Shown piece after piece: positions 4,463 to 29,297 of a DNA stretch of 39,157 bases. Under the pieces are notes generated by a model. The model ran no database searches. It was not told the DNA's origin and saw nothing but the letters and a program-made list of their open reading frames with translations. Position numbers and translations under genes: made by a program. Origin of the DNA: Deltaproteobacteria bacterium (GTDB lineage: Bacteria; Desulfobacterota; GWC2-55-46); assembly GCA_016213015.1 (NCBI GenBank), contig JACRCE010000039.1, positions 1-39,157 on the forward strand, read 5' to 3'. Every line of letters starts with the position of its first letter. Within the stretch, counting starts at the first letter, position 1.

Positions 4463-4634
4463 GTTCAGGCCGTTCAAAAACGTCCAGATGCAAGGCGTCA
4501 AGGAGCGACGAATGAGACGCACGGAGCCTGCCCAAGCCTGCCCTCGAATGTCTCTATCGAGGGAATGTTTCTATCGGGGGTTGTGCGTCGCTAGTTGAGG
4601 AGCGAGGCGGACAACGCAGCAGATGGGCGTTTTG
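4463..4634. repeat. Intergenic repeat, copy A of the CGTCCAGATGCAAGGCG...CAGATGGGCGTTTTG family, with internal CCCTCGA/TCGAGGG hairpin
   Basis: Matches the reverse complement of 28953-29121 in segmented fashion. Hairpin arms 4541-4547 and 4557-4563. Confidence 0.75.
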
Positions 4635-4743
4635 TAATGCCAATCGTCATAAAGACGATTGGCATTACCGGCATGGAACAAAGATATCTTTTTTAGAGTT
4701 CGCCTTGTCGCTTCGCGAGTCGGCGAACAACCGGTCAGCGGCC
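4635..4743. repeat. Two-hairpin repeat module (H1-H2), copy A
   Basis: H1 TAATGCCAATCGTC-ATAAA-GACGATTGGCATTA (4635-4667); H2 GTTCGCC...GGCGAAC (4698-4728). A covarying copy lies at 29129-29297. Confidence 0.85.
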
Positions 4744-5972: not shown

Positions 5973-7313
5973 ATGCAAAGGATAAAGGAAGAGGCGATAA
6001 TCCTTGTAAGCGTCGTCAAGTGGCTGGCGCTTGCGGCAACAACTGGCCTTATCGTCGGCGCATCAACCGCCGCATTCGTGAAGACGCTGAACCTCTGTTC
6101 TTCGGCAATACTGCTTTTACCCCATTATTTTCTCCTTCTGCCGCTTGGTCTCGCTTTTTCCGCCGCGCTTATCTATGTTTTTCCAGACGCCGTCGGACAC
6201 GGCGCAAATAAGGTCATCGGTATTATCCACCACGGCAATAGCAGGATACCGCCGATAAACACGATGGTTGAATTTTTGAGAACGACCATTACGCTTGCCG
6301 TGGGCGGGTCAGCGGGCAAGGAAGGGCCTGCCGCTCAGATTGGCGCGGGATGCGCCTCTTTATTCGCGGATTTACTGAGGTTTGAAGGGCAGGACAGAAG
6401 AAAGCTCGTTATATGCGGCATAAGCGGCGCCTTTGCATCGGTCTTCGGCACGCCTATAGCCGGCGCGATATTCGGCATCGAGGTATTGAGCGCCGGGACA
6501 ATCAAATATGACGTTCTCTTGCCGTCCTTTGTGGCGGGCATAGTGAGCTATCAGTTCTCATCATGGCTTGGGCTTGCGTACTTTCATCATCCGGTCATGT
6601 TCGTGCCGGTATTCACGGAGATGTTCTTTTTGAAGGTCGTCGTTGCCGGCATACTGTTCGGCGGGGTATCCTTCCTGCTCGTCGAGACGCTCAGCCTCGG
6701 CAAAAAAATATCGGCCTCGCTCAAACTGTCCCTGCCGCTCAAGGGGCTTATCATCGGCGCATCCCTTGCCGCGTCGGGTTTCGTGCTCGGAGACGCATAC
6801 TTCGGCCTTGGACTTGACACCCTGCGCTCCTCTCTTGAAGGCGCTCCGCTCCCTTGGTATGCCTTTCTGGTCAAAACCGTGTTTACAAGCGCAACGCTCA
6901 ACTTCGGCGGGAGCGGCGGCATAGGCACGCCGCTTTTCTTCGTAGGCGCAACCTCGGGCAACGCCTTTTCAGGGCTCCTTGGCGTTGACCCTGCAATGCT
7001 TGCCGCGATAGGCTTTGTGAGCCTTCTCGCCGGGGCCGCCAACACGCCGATTGCCGCGTCCATCATGGCCGTTGAGCTGTTCGGCGCTCTGGTCGCGCCT
7101 TATGCGGCAGTCTCATGCGTAATCAGCTACGTCGTTGCCGGGCATAGGAGCGTTTATCCGGCGCAGACGCTTGCCGTCAAAAAATCATCTTCCATCAAAG
7201 TTGAGGAGGGTCTGCCGCTTGAGGCGGTAAAGGCGAGGTATGAGGAAAGGGAAAATAGCGTAATCATTCGTCTGTCCCGCTTATGGCGGTTACTCAGACG
7301 AGATAGAGGCTGA
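5973..7313 (+). CDS. ClC-family chloride channel / H+/Cl- antiporter
   Basis: Multi-TM protein with GSAGKEGPAAQIGAG (gating glutamate in GKEGP), FGTPIAGAIFGIEV and GSGGIGTPLFFVGATSG. Confidence 0.93.
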   Translation: MQRIKEEAIILVSVVKWLALAATTGLIVGASTAAFVKTLNLCSSAILLLPHYFLLLPLGLAFSAALIYVFPDAVGHGANKVIGIIHHGNSRIPPINTMVEFLRTTITLAVGGSAGKEGPAAQIGAGCASLFADLLRFEGQDRRKLVICGISGAFASVFGTPIAGAIFGIEVLSAGTIKYDVLLPSFVAGIVSYQFSSWLGLAYFHHPVMFVPVFTEMFFLKVVVAGILFGGVSFLLVETLSLGKKISASLKLSLPLKGLIIGASLAASGFVLGDAYFGLGLDTLRSSLEGAPLPWYAFLVKTVFTSATLNFGGSGGIGTPLFFVGATSGNAFSGLLGVDPAMLAAIGFVSLLAGAANTPIAASIMAVELFGALVAPYAAVSCVISYVVAGHRSVYPAQTLAVKKSSSIKVEEGLPLEAVKARYEERENSVIIRLSRLWRLLRRDRG

Positions 7314-10300
7314 TGCCGCCAGAGCTTCAGGCAACGGTTTTCCTATGAGATACCCTTGAGCGTAATCAACGCCGTATTCCTTGAGGAGTTTCAAGACCCG
7401 CTCATCCCCTACGAACTCGGCAACCGTCTTTATGCCAAGCCCCTTTGCCAAGCCGGTCATGGCCTTGACGAACACCTGATCCGAGGCGTCTTTATGCAGG
7501 TTCATAATGAACGAGCCGTCGATCTTTATGTAATCCATTGACAGGGCTTTGAGATATGAAAAAGAGGTAAAGCCCACGCCGAAGTCGTCCAGCGAGAATT
7601 TGCATCCCATGCCCTTGAGGGCGTGGACGAATTTTTTTGCGGCAACGATGTCGCGGATGGCCGCAGTCTCGGTTATCTCGAAGATAAGGTTACGAGGGTC
7701 TGCGCCGGTCGTCTCGATTTTAGCTTGTATGAATCGCAAGAGATCCGCGTCGCCCAAGTCCTTTCCGGAAAGGTTCATGCTGAAGGCAAACGCCCCTGCC
7801 CCTCCCTTCGCCTGCATACGCATCGTCTTTTCGATGATCATCCTGTCGATATTGCCGACAAGCTCGAATCGTTCCGCGACGTCGATGAACGCTCCGGGAA
7901 GCAAGACCTCGCCATCGGCCGTGGTCATTCGCGCAAGCGCCTCGAAGTGATGCACGTGGTTGTCGCTAAGGTCGAGTATCGGCTGGAACCACGGTACAAA
8001 GCCGTCCTCCTCCAGCGCCTTGAGGATGCGCTCCTTCCATTTGAATCTGGAGTTGATCTTTTCAATATCCTTGTCATCCGGGCTGTACACGTGAATACGG
8101 TTTCTGCCGAGTTCCTTTGCCCGGTACATGGCGACGTCGGCCCTTGTGAAAAACGTCTTTGCATCCTGCGCGTGTTCAGGGTACATGACCATGCCGGCGC
8201 TGACGTTTACGGAAAAGGCATGGGAACCTTGCAATGTGCGCGACGCCTCGACGTCCTTTCTGAGGCGCTCCGCTATCTTGAGCGCTTCGGCCTCGGACAG
8301 ATGCGGGAGGAATATTGCGAACTCGTCCCCGCTCATGCGCCCAAGCATGGGGTTGGATCCGGTTTGGGCGACGACGGCCTTGTACTCGGCCTCCAGAGCC
8401 GATTGGAACAGTGAGGCCATGCTTGAGAGGATTTCGTCTCCCGTGGCGTGTCCATAGGTGTCGTTGACGTACTTGAAGTGGTCAACGTCGATGAGAAGCA
8501 GTGCGCCGTGTCCTTCAGGCCCTTCGGCAACAATCCATTCGGCGATAAGCTCCATGAAGCGCGCCCGGTTTACGAGAGACGTAAGCTCGTCGTGCCGGGC
8601 AAGATGCTGGAGCCGCTCTTCAGAGGCCATCTTCTCGGTCAGGTCCTCTTGGACTGCCAGAAAGTGAGTTATTGCGCCGCTTGCGTCCCTGACAGGGGAT
8701 ATGACGGTGCTGCACCAGTAGAACGCGCCGTTCTTTTTTCTGTTCTTGTACGTGTCGCGCCAAGTCTTGCCGGACGTTATGGTCTGCCACAACTGATCGT
8801 ACTTTTCCTGCGGCACGTCGCCGGAGGAGAGTATGCGCGGGGTCTGGCCGATCGCCTCGTCCCGCGAATATCCGGTTACGCTTTCGAACATCGGGTTGAC
8901 GTACTCGATATGGCCTTTGATGTCCGTGATGAAGACGATGTTTACGCTCTGCTCCATTGCCAAGTGCAGTTTTTTAAGCTCTATATCGGCCTTTTTATTC
9001 TCGGTTACGTCCCGTCCGTAGACGTTGACGTATTGCTCTCCATGCACCGGAGTCAGGATATAAGAGAAGAAGCGCTCACCGTGGTTTACCTCAAACTCCA
9101 TCTGTTTGTCAGCCGTTGCCGCCTCGGTAACAAGCCGTCGCCAGTAGTTCGAAAGCGGGGCGCCCGGTATCAAACCCTCCCCGGCAAAAAGATTCTGCGC
9201 GGCCGGATTAGCGTAGATCAAGATGCCGTCATGCGTCGTCCTGAGCACCGGGTATGGGTTTTCCAAGGGGAACTTGGCAAGGTTGGCGAGTTTTCTTTCG
9301 GCCTCCACCTGATCCGTGACGTCTTGCACCGTGCCGAACATGCGGACAGGCTCTCCGTTCGAGGCGTATTGCACGTTCGCAACTTCATGCACATATCTTG
9401 TCTTGCCGCCGGGCAGGAGTATCCTGTGATTTATTGAATATGGTTTTTTGCCGTGGAGCGCCGCGTCAACCGCGTCCTTTACCATCTGAGCGTCATCAGG
9501 ATGGACTGAGGAGATAAACGCCTCATAAGTCGCGCCGAATGACCGAGGGTTAAGCCCGAAGATGCGAAAGACCTCATCGGACCAGCGGAGCGTGTTTTGG
9601 GCGACGTTCCAGTCCCAGCTGCCGAGATGCGCGATGCGCTGGGCGCCGTTTAGCCGCGCTTCGCTGTCGAGAAGGGCAAGTTCCGCGGCCTTCCTGCTCG
9701 TAATGTCGGAAAATATGCCTTCAGCGTACTTGTGCCCGGCTTTCGCATAAGTCATGAACGCCTTGTTATGGAGCCAGACCCAGTCGCCGCTCTTTTTTTT
9801 GAACCTGTATTCCAGGCTGAACATGCCGTTATCGCTGATAAGGGCCTGATATGCCTGCTTGACCGTCTTTATATCGTCGGGATGGATGTTGTCGAACATG
9901 ATGCCCGGGCTGTTTAAGAATTCATGAACGGTATAGCCGCTTATGTTTAAGGCCATCGGGCTTATCGCCGTAACCCTCCCCGTTTCATCAATCGTCCACA
10001 GGCAGTCCGGCATGTTGTTTACAAGCGAGCGTAGCCTTGCCTCGCTCGCGACAATGGCCGTATTTTTTTCCTTTACGTTGGCCGTTATCGCGTTGAAGGC
10101 TGTGGCAAGGGAGGCTATCTCGTCGTTGCCGTTTACGGGAACCGGAGCGTTCAAGCCGCCTGAGGCTATCTTACCGGCCGCTTCGGCAAGGGCGCGAACC
10201 CGTGAAGTGGCGCGCCCGCATGAGAAGACGTTAATGAGAATGATGATGACGGCCGCGCTTATAAACGTCGGTAACATGTAAAAGTGCGGTTCAACGATTG

Positions 10301-10433
10301 CCCAAAGGCCGTGTTGTCTTGCCTGTGCGTCCAGCGAGGCATAAGCAAGGGCAAAAAATAAGGCAAAAAGCAGGAATACCGATATAATCGTATATATGGC
10401 GTTTTTGATGAAAACGTGGCGCATTGGCGGCAT
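7290..10433 (-). CDS. Membrane sensor with HAMP, multiple PAS/PAC, GGDEF (SGDEF) and EAL domains
   Basis: N-terminal TM segments, HAMP-like LAEAAGKIASGGLNAPVPVNGNDEIASLATAFN, repeated PAS/PAC segments, GRMSGDEFAIFLP, FEALARM, DDFGVGFTSFSYLK. Confidence 0.95.
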   Translation of the reverse strand: MPPMRHVFIKNAIYTIISVFLLFALFFALAYASLDAQARQHGLWAIVEPHFYMLPTFISAAVIIILINVFSCGRATSRVRALAEAAGKIASGGLNAPVPVNGNDEIASLATAFNAITANVKEKNTAIVASEARLRSLVNNMPDCLWTIDETGRVTAISPMALNISGYTVHEFLNSPGIMFDNIHPDDIKTVKQAYQALISDNGMFSLEYRFKKKSGDWVWLHNKAFMTYAKAGHKYAEGIFSDITSRKAAELALLDSEARLNGAQRIAHLGSWDWNVAQNTLRWSDEVFRIFGLNPRSFGATYEAFISSVHPDDAQMVKDAVDAALHGKKPYSINHRILLPGGKTRYVHEVANVQYASNGEPVRMFGTVQDVTDQVEAERKLANLAKFPLENPYPVLRTTHDGILIYANPAAQNLFAGEGLIPGAPLSNYWRRLVTEAATADKQMEFEVNHGERFFSYILTPVHGEQYVNVYGRDVTENKKADIELKKLHLAMEQSVNIVFITDIKGHIEYVNPMFESVTGYSRDEAIGQTPRILSSGDVPQEKYDQLWQTITSGKTWRDTYKNRKKNGAFYWCSTVISPVRDASGAITHFLAVQEDLTEKMASEERLQHLARHDELTSLVNRARFMELIAEWIVAEGPEGHGALLLIDVDHFKYVNDTYGHATGDEILSSMASLFQSALEAEYKAVVAQTGSNPMLGRMSGDEFAIFLPHLSEAEALKIAERLRKDVEASRTLQGSHAFSVNVSAGMVMYPEHAQDAKTFFTRADVAMYRAKELGRNRIHVYSPDDKDIEKINSRFKWKERILKALEEDGFVPWFQPILDLSDNHVHHFEALARMTTADGEVLLPGAFIDVAERFELVGNIDRMIIEKTMRMQAKGGAGAFAFSMNLSGKDLGDADLLRFIQAKIETTGADPRNLIFEITETAAIRDIVAAKKFVHALKGMGCKFSLDDFGVGFTSFSYLKALSMDYIKIDGSFIMNLHKDASDQVFVKAMTGLAKGLGIKTVAEFVGDERVLKLLKEYGVDYAQGYLIGKPLPEALAASASISSE

Positions 10434-10704
10434 CCGGTTGACGGTCTTTTAAGGACGCGATGGTATAGCTCACTCAACCGTTTATTATGCCTCAAGATTG
10501 GATTATTTCAAGGGGGCTATGCTTTTTCAGGGAGGAGGCACAGAATTTTAATTGGGGATGAACGCTAAGACTGATGAACATAGCCGATCGACCAGCAGTC
10601 TTTTTTCGGAGAGTGCCGCGAGATGGCAGGAAAGAGGTTATCGGTTAAGGCAAAAATAATCGTCCCCTTAACCTATAATCGCTTTAAGCGCTCAGAGCGC
10701 CTTG

Positions 10705-10756
10705 AGTCCCTTTAGATACAGCGCTCGTACCACGCCCTTTTCCGTTATTATGGCCG
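10705..10756 (-). pseudogene. Detached copy of the mtnA 3' end (direct repeat of 11640-11691)
   Basis: 51/52 nt identical to 11640-11691. The minus strand reads [20 protein letters not shown] (stop at 10692-10694) versus [24 protein letters not shown]... in mtnA. Confidence 0.85.
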
Positions 10757-10873
10757 CATGGTTTGATTGCGACCGGTTGTGAGGCTGATGCCATCAGGAG
10801 GAAATTCCAGACGACACGCCAACATCTATGAAATAGTTATAAAAAAGCCCGCAAGACTTGATTCCAATTGCGC

Positions 10874-11275
10874 TTATACCTCTTCCCTTAATTTCGAGAT
10901 AAATTCCTTTGCCTTTTTTATCCTCAACAGCACCTCGTCTTCGGTTAATTCAGACGACATCAGAAACGGGTATCTTTCCTCAATATAATATTCCGTTGCT
11001 TCCTGACACAAAACCCTAAACTCCTCAAACCCTACATTGTAGTCAACGGCATAATCGAGCAAGCCCTCCAGATCATGGATTCTTTCCAATTTCCAGCCCT
11101 TGCCGATTAGATACCCTTTGAGAGATTTTTCAATCGCCTGTTGGAGATGGAATGCCGCGCCTCCAGCATCGTTGTTTTCAAGCAATATTTCCGCCCGTCT
11201 TATATCAATATCTCCTTTATGAAACCAATCCTTCGGTAAAAGAGAGGCTCTATTTTTCATAGATAACTTTTCCAT
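10874..11275 (-). CDS. HEPN domain protein (partner of the upstream nucleotidyltransferase)
   Basis: KDWFHKGDIDIRRAEILLENNDAGGAAFHLQQAIEKSLKGYLIGKGWKLERIHDLEGLL is typical of PF05168-like HEPN. Its start overlaps the nucleotidyltransferase stop. Confidence 0.88.
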   Translation of the reverse strand: MEKLSMKNRASLLPKDWFHKGDIDIRRAEILLENNDAGGAAFHLQQAIEKSLKGYLIGKGWKLERIHDLEGLLDYAVDYNVGFEEFRVLCQEATEYYIEERYPFLMSSELTEDEVLLRIKKAKEFISKLREEV

Positions 11276-11576
11276 TTTTCGTAATCTCTATGAAAAAATC
11301 ATCTCCCATCTCCAAACGGCCGGACAATTCCACGGGTGTAAGCACCAATGATGAAAACGGCACTTTTTTCCTTATGTCCGATACTATCCGTCGCACGGTT
11401 ATACGCCTGTCAATGGGTCTATCCGTTGTATCTTTGATTATCAAGAGGTCAACGTCGCTTGCTTCATCGGGTGTGCCATATGCGTATGAGCCGTAAAGAA
11501 TAATCTTCTCCGGTTGATAGCGCTCACCGAGCCTTTTTGCCAGTTTTGATATTAGATCGGATAAATTTCTTTTCAT
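11250..11576 (-). CDS. MNT-type minimal nucleotidyltransferase
   Basis: ILYGSYAYGTPDEASDVDLLII (GSx10DxD). Likely start ATG at 11576 (gaggtgtgccATG) rather than the ORF-track start at 11609. Confidence 0.88.
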   Translation of the reverse strand: MKRNLSDLISKLAKRLGERYQPEKIILYGSYAYGTPDEASDVDLLIIKDTTDRPIDRRITVRRIVSDIRKKVPFSSLVLTPVELSGRLEMGDDFFIEITKNGKVIYEK

Positions 11577-11593
11577 GGCACACCTCAAGAAGT

Positions 11594-12655
11594 TTACAGA
11601 CAAGAGCATGAAGACGGCTGCGCCGCAAAAAGCCCCTTCAGTCCCTTTAGATACGGCGCTCGTACCACGCCCTTTTCCGTTATTATGGCCGTAACGAACT
11701 TGGCCGGGGTTACGTCAAACGCGGGATTTCTTACCTTTATTCCCTCCGGCGCGATCCGTTTGCCTTTGATGTGCGTAACCTCGCTTGATGCGCGTTCCTC
11801 TATGGGGATGAGGTCCCCGTGCTTCATCTTCAAGTCTATGGTTGACAGCGGCGCCGCGACGTAGAACGGGATGTTGTTCTCCCGCGCAAGCACGGCTACC
11901 GAGTAGGTGCCGATCTTGTTGGCCGTGTCGCCGTTGGCCGCGATCCTGTCCGCGCCGACCACCACGGAGTGGATAAGCCCCTTCTTCATCATCCAGCCGG
12001 CCATGTTGTCGGTTATGAGCGTTACGTCTATCCCGTCCTTATTCAATTCCCACGCCGTAAGGCGCGCGCCCTGCAAAAACGGCCTTGTCTCGTCGGCGAA
12101 CACCTGTATCTTCTTCCCCGCTTCAATGGCCCCGCGTATCACGCCGAGGGCCGTGCCGTACCCGGCGGTTGCAAGCGCCCCTGCGTTGCAGTGGGTAAGC
12201 GCCGTGCTATTGTCCTTCAAAAGACCGGCGCCGTTTGAGCCGATCTTCCGGCATATCGCGATGTCCTCTTGATGAATCAGTATAGCCTCGTCCACGAGCA
12301 GTTTTTGCAGTTGGGCAACGGTTGAGCCGGGGTTTGAGTCAACGACCCGCCTCATCCTCTCTATGCCCCAGAAGAGGTTTACGGCCGTGGGCCGCGTGGA
12401 AGCCAGAAGAGAGCTTATAATCCCAAGTTCCTTGCGGAATGCCTTTGCATCTTTGGTCTTTATCTTCAACGCGCCGATGGCCACGCCGAAAGCCGCGGCA
12501 ACGCCTATGGCCGGGGCGCCCCTTACCACCATGTCCTTTATCGCGCCGGCCACGGCCTTATAGTCTTTGTAAGTGCGGTAGACTTCCTTGTCCGGCAAAA
12601 CTCTCTGGTCTATCATCACTACTCCGGCCTTTGTCCATTCCACTGTTTTGAACAT
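11594..12655 (-). CDS. mtnA: S-methyl-5-thioribose-1-phosphate isomerase
   Basis: [79 protein letters not shown]. Confidence 0.97.
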
Positions 12656-22214: not shown

Positions 22215-23024
22215 ATGCAAACATATTTCGACAACCCGAAATTCAAACTATACCACGGAAACTGCTTGGATTTGTTGGCAGAGCTTCCGGAAAACTCGGT
22301 TGATATGGTTTTTGCCGATCCGCCGTATCTTCTTTCAAACGGCGGGTTCACTGTCCACGCCGGGCGGCGTGTAAGCGTGAACAAAGGCGAATGGGACAAA
22401 AGCAACGGGTTGAAAAAAGATTTTGAATTTCATCTTGAATGGATAGAGGCCGTCAAGCGCGTCTTGAAGCCGCACGGAACGATTTGGATTAGCGGCACTT
22501 ATCATTCCATCTATCAATGCGGTTTCGCGCTCCAAGCCGCAGAATTTCATATCCTCAACGATATTGCGTGGTTCAAACCTAACGCATCGCCGAATCTAAG
22601 TTGTCGTTATTTCACGGCAAGCCACGAAACCGTGCTTTGGGCGCGTAAGGATAAAAAGTCAAAGCATATCTTCAACTACGACCTTATGAAAAATGGTAGC
22701 TGGCCGGAGGATCAATTGAAAAAGACCGGCCTGCAAATGCGTTCGGTTTGGTCTATGGGAACGCCGAAAAGCGTTGAAAAAAAATTCGGCAAGCATCCAA
22801 CGCAGAAGCCGGAGAATTTATTGAAACGAATCGTCCTTGCCTCAACAAATAAAGGGGATCTCGTCATCGACCCGTTCACTGGAAGTTCAACGACAGGAAT
22901 TGCCGCCTATCTTCTCGGGAGACGCTTCATCGGCGTTGACACCGATGCAAAGTATCTTGATTTATCAATCAAACGGTTTAAGGAACTGGATCACAACTTG
23001 AAAAACAGGTACGCGAAAGTATGA
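22215..23024 (+). CDS. Site-specific DNA adenine methyltransferase, DpnA-like (beta-type motif order)
   Basis: VFADPPYLLSNGGF..SVNKGEWDK, GTIWISGTYHSIYQ, ASPNLSCRYFTASHETVLWARK, KHPTQKPENLLKRIVLAST, DPFTGSSTTGIAA; strongly resembles DpnA from memory. Confidence 0.9.
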   Translation: MQTYFDNPKFKLYHGNCLDLLAELPENSVDMVFADPPYLLSNGGFTVHAGRRVSVNKGEWDKSNGLKKDFEFHLEWIEAVKRVLKPHGTIWISGTYHSIYQCGFALQAAEFHILNDIAWFKPNASPNLSCRYFTASHETVLWARKDKKSKHIFNYDLMKNGSWPEDQLKKTGLQMRSVWSMGTPKSVEKKFGKHPTQKPENLLKRIVLASTNKGDLVIDPFTGSSTTGIAAYLLGRRFIGVDTDAKYLDLSIKRFKELDHNLKNRYAKV

Positions 23025-23665
23025 AGATAGTCACCCGCGCAACCGCGATGAAAAATTTGAAGGGGTATATCGGTCAAGATTTGCGCAAACTTGCTTTAGT
23101 GCACGGTATTACGACCTATGAAACCGGAAAGCAAAACAAGGGCTGGAAAGGTCTTGTTTTGGAGCGGTTGGCTGGACTTCAAACAAATGTCTCAAAAGCA
23201 CCGAACGGGCTTACCTACGAACTGAAATCAGTCGCTTTTCGTTGTGTGTGCGACGAACTTACACCGAAAGAGACGATGGCGATAACGATGATCAATCCTG
23301 AAGAATTGAAAGCCCATTCTTTTTTTGAAAGTCATTGTTGGTCAAAGCTCAAAACCATCGTTTTTTGCGCCGTAAAGTGGAACGGTAAAAACTCCGAGGC
23401 GGCAGAGCTGTTGAAAGTGGCGAGCTTGGACTTTGCCGAGGATGACGGATTGATAAAAGAAATCAAAGCCGACTACGATTTTATACGCGACAAACTTGTC
23501 TCGGAAGGTTTTGACGCCTTGACCGGAAAAGACGGCAAGTGGATACAAGCGCGGACAAAAGGGATTGGCGGCATAAATCCACACACAGGACAACGCCGGC
23601 CGGTTACACGGGCGTTTTATGCCCGAACAAGTTTGGTAAAGAAAATTTTTGAAATAGCAAGCTAA
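23021..23665 (+). CDS. MutH/Sau3AI-family endonuclease (restriction partner of the methyltransferase)
   Basis: TYELKS (ExK-type) and a MutH-like C-terminal segment DYDFIRDKLVSEGFDALTGKDGKWIQARTKG...TRAFYARTSLVKKIF. ATGA overlap with the methyltransferase. Confidence 0.78.
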   Translation: MKIVTRATAMKNLKGYIGQDLRKLALVHGITTYETGKQNKGWKGLVLERLAGLQTNVSKAPNGLTYELKSVAFRCVCDELTPKETMAITMINPEELKAHSFFESHCWSKLKTIVFCAVKWNGKNSEAAELLKVASLDFAEDDGLIKEIKADYDFIRDKLVSEGFDALTGKDGKWIQARTKGIGGINPHTGQRRPVTRAFYARTSLVKKIFEIAS

Positions 23666-28952: not shown

Positions 28953-29297
28953 CAGGCCGCCTCAAGCCGCGCATCTGCTTTGTTGTCTCCCCCGATAAAA
29001 ACATTCGGGGGGCAGGCTGTGCTCAGAACTCGACGTACATACAGAGTACGCCTCGTTCTTCGCAACTTCCCATTGCATTGTGCTTCGCACGCAATGGGAA
29101 CCCTGCCGCCTCGCATCCGCACCTTTTGTAAAATCATGCCGTCGTTACGCCGGCATGATTTTATCGGCAAGGATTAGAAGATGTCTCTTTTAAGCTCGCC
29201 TTGTTGCGAGGAAGTCGGCGAGCAACCGATGAGCGGCCTTTGTCATTTTTGGGTTTTGTAATACCAATCGTCATAAAGACGATTGGTATTACCGGCA
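28953..29297. repeat. Composite repeat block with at least five hairpins upstream of the GHKL gene (copy B)
   Basis: CCCCCGA/TCGGGGG (28989-29011), TTCCCATTGC/GCAATGGGAA (29067-29100), TAAAATCATGCCG/CGGCATGATTTTA (29129-29163), GCTCGCC/GGCGAGC (29194-29223), TAATACCAATCGTC/GACGATTGGTATTA (29259-29291). Confidence 0.85.

Follow-up and report, generated by a model that had tools for sequence, protein, structure and literature searches.

Some integrative elements insert into the 3' ends of genes or tRNA genes and rebuild the end. Insertion with long target duplication has been reported for restriction-modification genes (Nobusato et al. 2000, Gene 259:99; Furuta et al. 2010; cited via excerpts of PMC3874152, PMC1643837, PMC3031569 and PMC4978471). 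The type VII MNT-HEPN toxin-antitoxin systems, as described in excerpts of PMC2701414, PMC3710099 and PMC11586414, are made up of small overlapping genes, MNT first and HEPN second, with a patchy distribution that is called mobile, and the locus analysed here is like them in these respects; the same excerpts report no insertion mechanism and no flanking repeats. The scar described here makes visible the move of a small toxin-antitoxin pair that no transposon, integron or phage carries.

The window, by which we mean the whole stretch of 39,157 nucleotides that was analysed, holds an MNT-HEPN operon between two copies of the 3' end of mtnA. Both the feature and its interpretation as the scar of an insertion hold up; a preliminary description of this DNA had proposed that an MNT-HEPN unit of ~0.9 kb entered at the mtnA 3' end, a proposal that is supported, with the two mtnA ends as the scar. 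The features of the locus, by position in the window, are:

7290-10433, next gene past the flank, PAS-GGDEF-EAL; not syntenic with relatives
10434-10688, flank beyond the distal copy, taken to be the DNA that originally followed mtnA
10705-10756, minus strand, distal copy of the mtnA 3' end, a decaying remnant with weak homology to 10689 (repeat match; Pro to Leu, Phe lost)
10757-10873, rest of the insert, 3' of HEPN; holds a REP/BIME-like repeat
10874-11275, minus strand, HEPN protein, toxin-like, 133 aa (PF05168 1.6e-22, above cut-off)
11250-11576, minus strand, MNT nucleotidyltransferase, antitoxin-like (PF01909 2.9e-10, PF18765 3e-10)
11594-11639, minus strand, new mtnA 3' tail, LKGLF plus 10 further residues (from relatives' C-termini)
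11640-11691, minus strand, proximal (live) repeat copy within mtnA, with weak homology out to 11624 (51/52 identity with 10705-10756; invariant Pro and Phe kept)
11594-12655, minus strand, mtnA (S-methyl-5-thioribose-1-phosphate isomerase), the target gene, intact, 353 aa (TIGR00512 2.5e-134)

Direct pairwise comparison of 10705-10756 with 11640-11691 gave 51 of 52 identical nucleotides, in agreement with the preliminary description in both extent and coordinates. The ungapped match reaches 68 nt at 91% (10689-10756 against 11624-11691) and the two copies lie 935 nt apart from start to start. Mismatches are unevenly distributed, with 1 in 52 nt and then 5 in 16, a split that was picked after inspection of the data. 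In a self-comparison of the whole window no other direct repeat comes close to this pair in strength (E 7.6e-22), and no other is convincing at kilobase-scale spacing; across the 2.27-Mb genome, the mtnA-end sequence matches just these two sites, with no third copy. A palindromic repeat lies at 10646-10676, in the flank beyond the distal copy.

Elsewhere in the window, positions 22215-23665 hold a restriction-modification-like pair, in which the genes for a DNA methylase (PF01555) and a MutH-like endonuclease (PF02976) overlap, and for which the window self-comparison revealed no flanking direct repeat. A 45-nt direct repeat, 96% identical, is found at 4629-4673 and 29253-29297, 24.6 kb apart. 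The two contig ends (22-141 and 39013-39133) carry inverted copies, 94% identical, of a sequence of about 120 nt, probably a dispersed element where the assembly broke.

The segment bracketed by the repeat copies, ~0.87 kb long, contains an MNT-HEPN (type VII-like) toxin-antitoxin operon. The MNT gene has its own ribosome-binding site, begins 17 nt past the stop codon of mtnA, encodes a GS...DxD motif (GSYAYGTPDEASDVD), and is upstream of and overlapping the HEPN gene (by 26 nt), with Pfam matches above cut-off. It scores 30.5 bits against the MntA_antitoxin NCBIfam equivalog, under the cut-off of 60, and is a relative, not a member of that subfamily. The HEPN protein matches TT1696 (PDB 1ufb) at E 2.6e-4. 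Inspection of its 133-aa sequence found the RX4-6H RNase motif missing, which sets it apart from the type VII systems as described in the excerpts cited above (PMC2701414, PMC3710099, PMC11586414); members of PF05168 often depart from this motif according to an excerpt of PMC3710099, as HEPN-T often does. The insert (10757-11639) holds just MNT and HEPN, with no recombinase, transposase or integrase, as the preliminary description had observed for recombinases. A REP/BIME-like element at 10781-10822 (GAGGCTGATGCCRTCAGGAGGAAAYTCC...) belongs to a type scattered between genes throughout this genome and its family. A candidate integron attC site in the window was dropped, by inspection only, as the repeats beside HEPN are family-wide dispersed REP-like elements.

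The two mtnA ends have fared differently. Across 24 distinct mtnA ends of relatives two residues never vary, the Pro in RAPY and the Phe in ALF. Both are kept in the live copy, whereas the distal copy, which as had been noted stays open in frame until a TGA of its own (10694-10696), has Leu for Pro and a TGA in place of Phe. Because the invariant residues are kept in one and lost in the other, we consider the live end functional and the distal end a decaying remnant. Beyond the 52-nt identity both copies run on as diverged but recognisable mtnA ends (KGLF against KAL), and the MtnA proteins of most relatives usually end in LFxK directly before the stop, while the tail of the window's mtnA is longer. 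Residue conservation alone does not tell which copy was original. The preliminary description had taken the distal copy for the displaced original C-terminus of mtnA; analogy with three other loci that have informative relatives, discussed below, supports a displaced original end, but not a pristine one, since both invariant residues are gone from the present copy.

Relatives were informative about the surroundings of mtnA. The order moeA-mtnA is kept in 19 of 20 relatives' regions, and the gene after mtnA in the window differs from that in relatives. These relatives carry one mtnA end, but they are other genera with different downstream genes and thus do not provide a direct empty site. The closest MtnA in the genome contigs searched is 79% identical. 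A second mtnA end is absent from all other genomes searched.

The closest MNT-HEPN module that we found belongs to another family (G057) and shares 87% DNA identity over 475 nt with the module in the window. It sits behind a different small gene, not mtnA, and its homology starts at the MNT ribosome-binding site; this sister in another context supports the earlier suggestion that the pair travels as a minimal passenger. A second module (G058), with 76% identity and a truncated HEPN gene, lies between two other genes. No match to the module was found among the phages, plasmids and viral contigs searched, and carriage by a phage or plasmid was dropped for this reason. The window's genome (G000) has 13 HEPN-domain matches, compared with one each in the eight same-family or same-order genomes listed with a match, and this expansion is lineage-specific. 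The 87% identity with the G057 module, the differing contexts of the two related modules, the excess of HEPN matches and the lack of phage, plasmid and viral matches together lead us to conclude that the module is a recent, independently travelling unit.

The same scar recurs at other HEPN loci. In three discovery loci (L093, L097 and L102) the gene that precedes the module has its 3' end repeated on the downstream side, and a survey of 80 new HEPN loci, followed by 40 more (120 in all), added five with the same anatomy (L221, L230, L256, L257 and L334). L264 is the mirror image, in which the module is preceded by a repeat of the 5' end of the gene that follows it, and the repeat at L263 is the 5' end of radC. 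At these ten further loci, ten different target genes have an end that recurs on the far side of the module, and the unrelated target genes share no target sequence or core. Module and target gene are codirectional in 11/11 loci, the window included, the clear scar repeats are 45-274 nt long, and the most tightly bracketed loci have a spacing (874-1046 nt) as long as the operon itself.

The by-eye classification of scars was unblinded. An automated count found gene-end brackets around 8 of 120 HEPN genes and 2 of 261 control genes drawn from these regions (p = 0.002), with a crude classifier that includes doubted cases, misses accepted ones and disagrees with the by-eye calls at several loci. 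Raw bracketing by any two-copy direct repeat was modestly enriched (10/80 against 12/341 controls, then 7/40 against 7/88), part of it due to dispersed intergenic repeats. A flank-versus-flank test gave 6 of 34 modules against 1 of 35 gene pairs, a sample too small to stand alone. The enrichment may mark recent insertion generally and not toxin-antitoxin genes specifically. By eye, the repeats at L225, L323, L326, L332, L337 and probably L341 are dispersed intergenic repeats and not gene ends, and these loci were rejected; L193, L212, L262 and L329 are doubtful. At L337 (contig C66 of G000), another HEPN gene (8482-9300) lies between copies of a MITE-like repeat, and the contig ends in that repeat.

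Relatives lacking the module indicate the direction of the event at three loci. G305, of the same genus as G263, has one gene end and no module; when it is aligned to the distal copy of G263 the match runs past the stop into the distal flank, whereas with the proximal copy it stops short. In G167, of the same genus as G221, the gene end runs directly into the sequence found behind the distal copy in G221, and in relatives of G141 the two flanking genes lie 35-90 nt apart, compared with about 2.5 kb in G141. As these relatives match the distal flank or show an uninterrupted gene order, the distal copy is the original end at the G263, G221 and G141 loci. In G167 (L269, 1-923), an attC-like inverted repeat (GCTAACCAGCAAATCCAGCGGACGCG...CGCGTCGCTGATTTGCAGGTT) past the CoA-transferase gene precedes a second MNT-HEPN pair, which is DUF86-like and occupies the position of a different MNT-HEPN in G221; contact with an integron cassette is possible there.

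We propose that the MNT-HEPN unit probably entered at the mtnA 3' end by insertion with long target duplication. The course of events that we infer, including the duplication, its direction at mtnA, co-transcription and the toxin and antitoxin activities, would begin with the arrival of a two-gene operon at the mtnA 3' end as a minimal unit of ~0.87 kb, without a recombinase, and its insertion would duplicate about 52-68 bp of the target. The proximal copy would then complete mtnA with a slightly altered C-terminus, while the displaced original end would be the distal copy, now decaying. The operon would bring its own ribosome-binding site and, as the gap is just 17 nt, is probably also read through from mtnA; the survivors would be cells that retain mtnA together with an addictive pair. 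It is possible, and we suggest it tentatively, that MNT-HEPN operons are a mobility unit in their own right, inserting codirectionally at gene ends phylum-wide by a process that needs no recombinase and has yet to be described, duplicating a target of 45-270 bp and spreading like restriction-modification genes without a transposon or integron.

The uneven mismatches at mtnA are not what the duplication of an identical sequence predicts and keep alive a different route, one-sided homologous integration, in which a circle or a linear fragment (by homology-facilitated illegitimate recombination) would bring in MNT-HEPN together with a foreign mtnA end, so that the repeat came from the donor, and would leave a topology identical to that of target duplication. 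The copies diverge past 52 nt as two alleles would, and at L230 and L334 the informative sites lean towards the resident sequence on the 5' side of the proximal copy and on the 3' side of the distal one, a trend short of significance (p = 0.06 and 0.12). Of the 11 host genomes tested, 10 gave no match to the classical end-joining protein Ku, which favours this route and led us to drop Ku-dependent end joining as a mechanism; one-sided integration happens at a low rate in E. coli (PMC3240628), and for Arabidopsis genes with genic flanking repeats re-insertion from circles has been suggested (PMC2869330). However, the closest sister module, in G057, travels without an mtnA end, and for each of the eleven targets a donor would be needed in which the module already lay beside the matching gene, so that the first insertion is left unexplained. 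We therefore regard one-sided integration as a somewhat unlikely source of the scar, and insertion with long target duplication as the preferred account.

Three further explanations have much less in their favour. The preliminary description had compared the locus to site-specific integration, and a rebuilt gene 3' end with a long flanking repeat is indeed found in many integrative elements; if the mtnA 3' end were such an attachment site, a recombinase would have to act in trans, as the insert has no gene for one. That ten scars surround ten different genes argues against an mtnA-specific recombinase, and with at least ten unrelated targets, no common core among the eleven, two scars at gene 5' ends (L263 and L264) and no second mtnA end in the other genomes searched, we consider site-specific integration very unlikely. 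Equally improbable in our view is a local tandem duplication of the mtnA 3' end, with MNT-HEPN inserted separately or captured by a later rearrangement: REP-like and palindromic repeats do flank the distal copy on both sides and the gene order past mtnA is unlike that of relatives, but two coincident events would be needed, and the same coincidence at ten loci with matching spacing. The genome is a draft of 117 contigs, in which two strain variants could have been joined via a common mtnA end; such an assembly artefact is scarcely credible given that the copies differ, that decay has reached invariant sites in the distal one and that the same anatomy occurs on single-contig chromosomes (L093 in G092 and the more complex L262 in G269). 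With eleven scar loci, three of them comparable with relatives, the choice between target duplication and one-sided homologous integration is directly testable.

For annotation, the locus is a trap: the C-terminus of a core gene is altered here, and downstream lies a copy of the gene's true end that has decayed. Like the integrative elements that use gene 3' ends, it has the gene end repeated at both borders and the reading frame restored; unlike them, its cassette is smaller than 1 kb and has neither an integrase nor a common attachment site. Transposed genes of Arabidopsis with genic flanking repeats (PMC2869330) likewise have direct repeats homologous to a genic target site, but that case is eukaryotic and circles arising by recombination between tandem repeats were proposed for it. 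A literature search of partial coverage found no paper that ties toxin-antitoxin pairs to such scars, and what is new here is the type of cargo and the recurrence of the scar. As far as the excerpts cited above describe them, the restriction-modification cases differ from ours in that our cargo is an MNT-HEPN operon, the repeats are 45-274 nt long in clear cases and consist mostly of gene 3' ends, and the insertions are codirectional. They share with our loci recombinase-less, addiction-type genes between long target repeats of variable length, on the order of 100 bp, and the spread of toxin-antitoxin pairs is thereby linked to a phenomenon previously reported for restriction-modification genes.
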